A DNA stretch of 15,229 bases from Candidatus Woesearchaeota archaeon (GTDB taxonomy: Archaea > Nanobdellota > Nanobdellia > Woesearchaeales > GW2011-AR9): NCBI GenBank assembly GCA_016181345.1, contig JACOZM010000127.1, positions 1 to 15,229 on the forward strand, in the 5' to 3' direction. Positions 5,856-7,670 of this stretch are shown here, piece after piece; the stretch's first letter is position 1; each line of letters opens with the position of its first letter. The notes beneath the pieces were generated by a model, which made no database searches, had not been told where the DNA came from, and was given only the letters and a program-made list of their open reading frames with translations. The position numbers and the translations under genes were made by a program.

Positions 5856-5865
5856 TTTATAAATA
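5856..5865 (+). promoter_or_regulatory. Strong TATA box driving the candidate RNA gene
   Basis: TTTATAAATA is a near-consensus archaeal TATA box, preceded by a purine-rich stretch suitable for TFB contact. Its centre lies about 26 nt before G5886, where the GC-rich structured element begins. Confidence 0.7.
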
Positions 5866-5885
5866 GGCTTTCATAATGAGATTTA

Positions 5886-5956
5886 GCCCACACCGAGAGT
5901 ACCTGTGGGAGTTCACGGCAACGCCAAGCGATGAACACTGGGGTTAGCGTGCGGGC
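5886..5956 (+). ncRNA. Candidate structured RNA (71-nt GC-rich core), no family recognised
   Basis: By my count 45 of 71 bases are G or C, in surroundings that are strongly AT-rich. Its first base is where the TATA box at 5856-5865 should start transcription. It can fold in two competing ways. An outer stem pairs 5886-5893 with 5949-5956 (seven pairs, one A-C mismatch), or a local hairpin pairs CCCACA 5887-5892 with TGTGGG 5904-5909. A second hairpin pairs GTTCA 5911-5915 with TGAAC 5932-5936 and encloses GGC/GCC at 5917-5919 and 5923-5925. ACGC 5921-5924 can also pair with GCGT 5947-5950 as a pseudoknot. It lacks the signatures of tRNA, 5S rRNA, SRP RNA, RNase P RNA and the TPP and fluoride riboswitches. 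The mature 3' end may extend to about 6060. It could be a free RNA or the leader of dnaG. Confidence 0.5.
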
Positions 5957-5975
5957 ATCAAATTTATTATCAACG

Positions 5976-6059
5976 ATAGAAAAATAGTCACAATCATTAC
6001 ATCACGCGATCATTTGATTTACAATTTAAAGTGCGTAAAGTAAGTGCCTATTTTTCTAT
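5976..6059. repeat. Long inverted repeat 1 (12-bp perfect arms, extended to 15 pairs)
   Basis: ATAGAAAAATAG at 5976-5987 is the exact reverse complement of CTATTTTTCTAT at 6048-6059. After one mismatch (5988/6047) three more pairs form (CAC 5989-5991 with GTG 6044-6046). The 52-nt interior contains AATCA/TGATT, which can add a nested stem. On the + strand the second arm carries T5 and continues into TATATT, so it may end or process the candidate RNA that starts at 5886. Confidence 0.6.
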
Positions 6060-6070
6060 ATTAGATATAA

Positions 6071-6164
6071 AGAAGAAGTATCACATTCATCATATCACTA
6101 CATCACCAACAGTTTAAGATAAATTTAAGTGTGAATTAGAGAGAATTGATGATTTACTTCTTCT
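6071..6164. repeat. Long inverted repeat 2 (10-bp perfect arms)
   Basis: AGAAGAAGTA at 6071-6080 is the exact reverse complement of TACTTCTTCT at 6155-6164. Further in, ATCAT 6089-6093 can pair with ATGAT 6149-6153. It lies immediately after inverted repeat 1 and ends about 85 bp before the dnaG start, so it could be part of a structured dnaG leader or a protein-binding site. Confidence 0.5.
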
Positions 6165-6248: not shown

Positions 6249-7670
6249 ATGGCAAAAATAAGCCCAGTAGCGGCAAAATATATCGTTCATGCATCTATTA
6301 AGATTGAAGGTATAGTAGATCGTCCGGATGTCATCGGAGCAATTTTTGGACAGACGGAAGGTTTGTTAGGAGCAGATTTAGAATTACGAGAATTACAACG
6401 GTCGGGAAGAATCGGCAGAATCGAGGTTAATGTTTCAACATCTTCCGGAAAAACGGAAGGAGAAATTGTTATTCCTAGTTCTTTAGATAAGACAGAAACA
6501 GCTATTGTTGCAGCAGCGTTAGAAGTTATCCAGAGGATCGGACCTTGTAATGCGAAAGTAGAAGTTAATAATATTGAAGACGTAAGAATCAGCAAGCGGC
6601 AGTTTGTGATTGAAAGAGCTAAGGCCTTATTAAAGGATCTTACCGAAAGGACATTGCCTGATTCTCAAGAATTGGCTGATGAAGTTGCTCAATCTGTAAG
6701 AATGATGGAAGCAGTGACTTATGGCCGAGAACGGCTAGATGCCGGCCCAGCTATAGAAGAGAGTGATGAAATTATCATTGTTGAAGGAAGAGCTGATGTT
6801 CTGAACTTATTAAAACATGGGTTCAAGAATGCGATTGCTTTAAATGGAACTTCTGTCCCTCAGACGATCAAAGACCTTACCCGAAAGAAAACAAGCACTG
6901 TTTTTGTTGATGGAGACCGAGGCGGCGACTTAATTATCCGAGAGTTGTTAGGAACAGCGGAAATGGACTTCGTATCTAAAGCTCCGGACGGAAAAGAAGT
7001 TGAGGAAATAACCAAGAAGGAAATCCATAAAGCTTTACGGGGAAGAATAACTGCTGAGCAATGTAAGTTAGATTTAGGGATTGATGATACAGGAGCCTTA
7101 AAGGAAGATCATGCTGGAAATACGAGAATGCAGAGCAATTATCGTATGCCTCAGAAAAAATTTGAGCAGAATGATGTTCGTGAGCAGAGAGACAACCGTG
7201 ATATGAGAGATTCACGAGAAGGAAGAGATAACAAGGATCAAATTAGAACTTCCCGCGTACAACCTCGGCAATCGAATGCACCATTTAATCCTCAAGGAAG
7301 CAACTCTGGATCTAATGGCAGCACTAATGGATCTCCGGTCAATAGTTCTCCAGCACCAAGAAGGGATAAAAAATTGAGTCCTGATGAAGTTAAAATTTTC
7401 AAAGCAACCCTTGAAGATCTTTTTGGCACTAAGGGCGCGTGCATCTTTGACCAAAAGCTGAATGTCCTAGGAAAAGTTCCCTTGTCAGAGTTAAGTTCGA
7501 CGATTAAAAGCTTAAATGGCGGAGTCTATGCTTTGGCTTTAGATGGAGCGGCGGACATAGAATTAGTCAGAACTGCTGAAAAGCTAGGAGTTACTTATGT
7601 TATAGCTCCGGGAAGCAAGATCAAAGAAGCCAGTAAAGTTGTTGTTGTAACGGATGAGATGCTAGTTTAA
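6249..7670 (+). CDS. dnaG: Archaeal DnaG-type primase / exosome-associated Toprim protein
   Basis: Archaeal DnaG has a Toprim core, shows primase activity in vitro in some species, and is a stable partner of the RNA exosome with Csl4. Residues 1-165 match the family's N-terminal region (AKYIVHASIKIEGIVDRPDV, then AIFGQTEGLLG). The Toprim domain spans about 170-260, with catalytic Glu179 in IIIVEGRADV and the acidic metal cluster DGDRGGD at 221-227. Residues 280-375 are a low-complexity linker, first rich in Arg, Asp and Asn, then in Ser, Gly and Asn. A C-terminal alpha/beta domain (about 378-473) follows, ending in VVVVTDEMLV. The total of 473 residues is within or slightly above the family's usual range. 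The gene stands alone behind a 670-bp non-coding gap and is followed by a T-rich terminator. Confidence 0.95.
   Translation: MAKISPVAAKYIVHASIKIEGIVDRPDVIGAIFGQTEGLLGADLELRELQRSGRIGRIEVNVSTSSGKTEGEIVIPSSLDKTETAIVAAALEVIQRIGPCNAKVEVNNIEDVRISKRQFVIERAKALLKDLTERTLPDSQELADEVAQSVRMMEAVTYGRERLDAGPAIEESDEIIIVEGRADVLNLLKHGFKNAIALNGTSVPQTIKDLTRKKTSTVFVDGDRGGDLIIRELLGTAEMDFVSKAPDGKEVEEITKKEIHKALRGRITAEQCKLDLGIDDTGALKEDHAGNTRMQSNYRMPQKKFEQNDVREQRDNRDMRDSREGRDNKDQIRTSRVQPRQSNAPFNPQGSNSGSNGSTNGSPVNSSPAPRRDKKLSPDEVKIFKATLEDLFGTKGACIFDQKLNVLGKVPLSELSSTIKSLNGGVYALALDGAADIELVRTAEKLGVTYVIAPGSKIKEASKVVVVTDEMLV

Follow-up and report, generated by a model that had tools for sequence, protein, structure and literature searches.

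A covarying small RNA upstream of dnaG in Woesearchaeota, predicted as a box H/ACA-type guide for helix 69 of 23S rRNA

In a 15,229-nucleotide stretch of DNA from a Candidatus Woesearchaeota archaeon (GenBank assembly GCA_016181345.1, contig JACOZM010000127.1; this whole stretch is called the window), a GC-rich island lies between a TATA box and dnaG, which raises the question of whether the island encodes an RNA and, if so, what that RNA does. The island, which opens with GCCC and closes with GGGC, spans positions 5886–5956; direct counting gave 71 nt with 45 G/C, and neighbouring 100-base windows have a G+C content of 29–36%. A preliminary description, made from the letters alone, had reported a TATA box and a GC-rich 71-nt element in AT-rich surroundings, and both were confirmed by the count, by the G+C windows and by homologs. 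It was also right in placing a structured RNA where an archaeal promoter upstream of dnaG should start transcription; the element covaries in relatives. Among 99 distinct copies, TTTAWA peaks at 30–33 nt before the stem, and 66 of the 99 carry this motif within −40 to −22. The further claim that the element matches no known RNA family held in one respect: Rfam 15 models gave no match in the window at E ≤ 1 and two matches at E ≤ 10, both off the element and on the other strand, none matched the element in seven relatives, and a tRNA search likewise returned nothing on the element. The kind of RNA is nevertheless a known one, because the element has box H/ACA anatomy and a covarying rRNA target. 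In literature mostly readable without subscription, nothing was found on Woesearchaeota riboswitches or DPANN pseudouridine guide RNAs, nor on archaeal pseudouridine guide RNA with sR-h45, and a search of the same scope on Woesearchaeota noncoding RNA returned off-topic papers only.

The distribution of the element was examined at several taxonomic depths. A DNA search of 60 relatives found a match at E ≤ 1 in 31 genomes, and 24 of the 25 places that were aligned proved to be homologs. In all 24, TTTATA stands at a similar distance upstream, and dnaG follows in the same orientation; the remaining place, L027, was rejected as a homolog. A covariance model built from 21 of these 24 homologs matched 47 of 49 genomes of the window's family, 233 of 287 genomes of its order and 218 of 371 genomes from a phylum-wide sample, and in that sample all of the matches listed were from the same family, order or class as the window. 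Each matching order genome gave a single match, except for two each in G110 and G196. The two family genomes with no match were G028 and G017. A pattern scan of named genomes returned 43 stretches, titled Woesearchaeota, Nanoarchaeota, Nanoarchaeia or simply archaeon; the DnaG motif GQTEG was present downstream in 42 of them, and the remaining stretch ends before that point.

Two alignments were used to examine structure: A2, which holds 100 chosen loci with some overlap avoided, and A3, which holds 73 of these and omits long-insert rows, near-duplicates and several divergent rows (L133, L136, L151, L153, L009, L019 and L023 among them). A single hairpin accounts for the data from the 100 aligned copies in A2, and it consists of a lower stem of nine pairs, an internal loop (GAGARUA against NGUUA), an upper stem of five to six pairs, a K-turn (GA-GY against GC-NAU-GA) and a variable, expandable tip. 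Stem cells are paired in 92.9% of cases in this alignment, and double-change cells number 230, compared with 59.5 (sd 11.0) after shuffling and 13–51 with slid partners, the alignment being partly fitted to the structure. In the plain 73-copy alignment, 92.7% of stem cells are paired, and 167 double-change cells were counted against 46.7 (sd 7.4) after shuffling. The GA/GA letters of the K-turn are invariant (100/100 rows) and the bulge U is nearly so (98/100); the sixth upper-stem pair is weak, being unpaired in 51 of 99 rows, and 25 rows lack the third tip pair. The covariation across relatives that had been put forward as a check on the preliminary description is thus strong in both the lower and the upper stem, but the two hairpins and possible pseudoknot proposed there gave way to one hairpin, and the CCCACA/TGTGGG pairing, although present in the window copy, is not conserved. 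Folding of the single sequence gave an energy no better than chance on the plus strand (z −1.05; 36 of 200 shuffles as good) and z −1.78 on the minus strand (10 of 200 shuffles as good); support for an RNA structure therefore comes from conservation and covariation, not from single-sequence folding energy. The comparison marks the GC-rich island as a genuine gene for a small RNA, and its features are collected in Table 1.

Table 1. Features of the RNA gene and its surroundings in the window
Feature	Position	Strand	Remarks
TATA box TTTATAAAT	5856..5864	+	30 nt before the stem; seen in the window copy and in homologs
H/ACA-type guide RNA (stem 5886-5956 and 3' box)	5886..5960	+	Homologs, covariation
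Lower stem, 5' strand GCCCACAC	5886..5893	+	Pairs with 5949-5956; A5890/C5952 mismatched in the window copy
5' guide arm GAGAGUA	5895..5901	+	GAGAGU complementary to ACUCUC of 23S helix 69
Upper stem, 5' strand	5902..5907	+	Pairs with 5936-5941; U5904/U5939 mismatched in the window copy
K-turn, non-bulged strand, GA then GU	5909..5912	+	Columns 28-30 invariant in 100/100 rows
Variable tip, short stem 5917-5919/5923-5925	5913..5927	+	Tens of bases longer in L024, L025 and L026
K-turn, bulged strand GC-GAU-GA	5928..5934	+	GA 100/100, U 98/100
Upper stem, 3' strand	5936..5941	+	Covariation
3' guide arm GGUUA	5942..5946	+	GUUA complementary to UAAC of helix 69
Lower stem, 3' strand GTGCGGGC	5949..5956	+	Direct reading
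3' box position	5958..5960	+	UCA here, ANA expected
dnaG (TOPRIM protein), next gene downstream	6249..7670	+	

The anatomy of this hairpin was compared with that of archaeal H/ACA guides, for which limits of 7–9 for the lower stem, 8–11 for the GA stem and 14–16 nt from pocket to box are given in PMC4652768. As in an H/ACA hairpin, the covarying lower and upper stems enclose an internal-loop pocket, and the upper stem bears a K-turn; the GA stem of about nine layers (read from the alignment), the guide arms of 7 + 5 nt and the lower stem of 8–9 all fall within the published ranges. The window copy has eight lower-stem positions with one mismatch, and one mismatch also in the upper stem. The distance from pocket to box is 17 nt in 91 rows, 16 nt in three and 15 nt in six of the 100, usually with a 2-nt bulge, and it is 16 nt in the window copy. 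An ANA box is present in 48 of the 100 copies, comprising 20 of 20 class rows, 28 of 40 order rows and 0 of 40 family rows; at this place the family rows carry UCA (39 rows) or CCA (one row), and the window carries UCA. The two H/ACA proteins searched for, Cbf5 and Nop10, are present in the lineage: Cbf5 matched 56 of 60 relatives (49 over the cut-off) and Nop10 matched 59 (58 over the cut-off). In the window's own assembly, which is 68% complete, Nop10 was found and Cbf5 gave no match. Cbf5 was also not matched in G006, G027 and G056, the last of which is 99% complete and has the guide, and it gave weak partial matches only in G001 and G007. In four genomes (G030:C17, G031:C1, G032:C26 and G054:C10) the Cbf5 profile is split in two within frames of 823–844 aa, which probably contain an intein. 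The Cbf5 C-termini of the window's family lack a tail, and their PUA part shows a gap of one residue (17 proteins, nine of them from the family; L221–L236 and L217). A tie between this tail loss and the UCA box was considered, and no conclusion was drawn because Cbf5 of G055, a genome with an ACA box, is without the tail as well. Taken together, these features make box H/ACA-type guides the best reading of the RNA family, with the window copy itself having no ANA.

A target for the two guide arms is found in helix 69 of the 23S rRNA, which in relatives reads UAAC-UAUA-ACUCUC (the window's own assembly gave no 23S or 16S match). The arms GAGAGU and GUUA are complementary to both flanks, and the UAUA left between them holds the positions of U1915 and U1917. 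Where class genomes have a GAGAA guide, helix 69 reads AUUCUC; G378 and G363, also of the class, carry guides that read GAGAGA. Among the 44 genomes with both sequences, guide and helix 69 are consistent in 43 (GAGAG/ACUCUC in 31, GAGAA/AUUCUC in 11 and AGAGU/ACUCUC in one), the misfit being G129 with GAGGA/ACUCUC; G110, which is counted among the 31, carries one additional G beside the arm. The division between the two guide/helix 69 states is also that between the order and the other class families sampled, so that the covariation may stem from one or a few events, and the stem of helix 69 changes too. In L178, L180, L182 and L184 the 23S rRNA leaves the usual sequence right after helix 69 (AAGGU...), which suggests insertions or introns. 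With this anatomy and these pairings, the element is very probably a box H/ACA guide, with U1915 and/or U1917 of helix 69 as its predicted target.

It is improbable that the RNA is an H/ACA guide whose true target lies elsewhere. In a strict H/ACA target scan, helix 69 came first in 3 of 21 genomes (one of them a tie) and did not score above shuffled rRNA, and in most genomes other sites scored as high or higher. The pairing with helix 69 leaves 3–4 target bases unpaired where the canonical number is 2 (UN), and a published haloarchaeal guide model, as set out in section 14 of PMC4652768, likewise needs a third unpaired residue. The scan was also run with a relaxed rule that tolerates a single unpaired guide base per side and spacers of 2–4; of 25 genomes with an LSU match, 20 were used (four had no guide row and one had a fragmented LSU). 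Under this rule, which was chosen post hoc and used without a shuffle control, helix 69 ranked first in the LSU of all 20 genomes, with a mean score of 25.4 versus 17.95 for the next column; in the SSU the best column under the same rule, set after the helix 69 match had been seen, reached 13.8, in 15 genomes. No other column of the LSU or SSU was consistently complementary in the relaxed scan, however, and the changes in the guide arm follow helix 69.

The position of the RNA gene bears on whether the element could instead be a cis-acting dnaG leader only, in which the hairpin or K-turn binds DnaG, L7Ae or a ligand and controls dnaG while guiding nothing. Of 100 copies, 97 are followed by dnaG in the same orientation, at a distance of 94–567 nt (median 212). 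TATA-like sites are rarer in the stretch from guide to dnaG than in shuffled spacers (0.34 versus 0.62 per spacer), so dnaG probably shares the guide's promoter and may depend on it. Furthermore, archaeal L7Ae is reported in PMC6298567 to bind a K-turn within the leader of its own mRNA, and DnaG is described in PMC4227792 as an RNA-binding exosome subunit. A leader that guides nothing is nevertheless very improbable: three copies are not followed by dnaG, and the loop arms covary with 23S rRNA, which is not required of a leader. Two of these copies (L112 and L116) precede a phosphoglycerate-mutase-like ORF, as judged from the translation alone, and the next gene after the third (L159) is on the other strand; the RNA can therefore act in trans. 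A cis-regulatory leader or riboswitch would always be attached to the gene it regulates, and here 97 of 100 copies are linked and three are apart; because of the unlinked copies and the rRNA covariation, the riboswitch reading is weakened and was set aside. The three copies away from dnaG share GGACGTTC[T/G]TGCA just upstream of the guide, and in L116 the 5' part of the guide is partly duplicated.

A guide with a second job in cis is a different matter, and we regard it as unlikely. Sitting as a K-turn RNP at the start of the dnaG transcript, the helix 69 guide would tie its own maturation to DnaG expression, the leader would couple rRNA modification to RNA turnover throughout the class, and a second long-range stem near the ribosome-binding site would act as a switch. 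Such a stem, AGAACAAG...CUUGUUCU, is seen in many order and class copies, with its 3' arm shortly before the ribosome-binding site, and part of the window's family has AGAAAGAGUA...UACUCUUUCU. The score for a second leader stem is at or above the 95th percentile of shuffles in 42 of 97 spacers; the window's own spacer scores 17 with a shuffled mean of 17.4, below that percentile. The fold of the window spacer shows stems 5976–5987 with 6048–6059 and 6071–6080 with 6155–6164. In the window's family, CUCUUUCU stands ahead of the dnaG ribosome-binding site and at first resembled a partner for GAGAGUA. This reading was rejected; many relatives use the sequence for the 3' arm of a local stem. Finally, it is extremely improbable that an H/ACA-like RNA pairs with helix 69 as a chaperone or assembly factor with no pseudouridylation, as the non-canonical target spacing and the loss of ANA in the window's family might suggest, since 48 of 100 copies keep ANA and the bases left exposed are those that, according to PMC2584109, are modified in haloarchaea, yeast and man.

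For a box H/ACA guide aimed at helix 69, the following steps are proposed. The TATA box at 5856 would drive transcription, probably of guide and dnaG as one unit, and the RNA would be cut from the leader. Judging from the RNA family, L7Ae would bind the K-turn, and Cbf5 with Nop10 and Gar1 would hold the lower stem and the 3' box. The arms GAGAGU and GUUA would pair with ACUCUC and UAAC of helix 69, as complementarity and covariation suggest, with UAUA exposed, and U1915 and/or U1917 (E. coli numbering) would be converted to pseudouridine. For a large and mostly uncultivated archaeal lineage, this provides a likely guide for two rRNA pseudouridines that are among the most conserved; the covariation between guide and rRNA can be checked, and the covariance model annotates the RNA. 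The steady address before dnaG is unexpected and makes a tie between rRNA modification and an exosome/primase protein testable, and the family that has exchanged ANA for UCA offers a ready-made case in which to test how Cbf5 recognises the box.

Several described RNAs resemble the woesearchaeal RNA in part. The Nanoarchaeum equitans 159-nt H/ACA sRNA, seen by RNA-seq, also has K-turns and a TATA box and is from a nanoarchaeon, but it has two hairpins and lies between NEQ389 and NEQ392 (PMC3491384; compared by description). Pyrococcus Pf7-III/Pab40.3 and Archaeoglobus Af4.3 are likewise archaeal guides, for the equivalent of 1915 (as presented in PMC2584109 and PMC4652768), although no Rfam model matches the woesearchaeal RNA; Pf7-III is moreover a hairpin within a multi-hairpin RNA, and the in vitro activity recounted in PMC2584109 is for 1915 only, not 1917. 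In eukaryotes, the H/ACA snoRNAs snR191 of yeast and U19 of man are said in PMC2584109 to modify both equivalent positions, and they are likened to the woesearchaeal RNA by described target, not by sequence. Also close is the H/ACA hairpin HP2 (Hvo2) of Haloferax volcanii, which is reported to target L1956 and L1958, corresponding to E. coli 1915 and 1917 (PMC2584109). As in the woesearchaeal RNA, one hairpin is proposed to serve both helix 69 positions from one pocket by alternative pairing (accounts in PMC2584109 and PMC4652768), and one model has a third unpaired target residue (PMC4652768), compared with 3–4 here; the likeness is one of description, not of sequence or gene order. The woesearchaeal RNA is best read as a guide that would work like haloarchaeal HP2, snR191 and U19.
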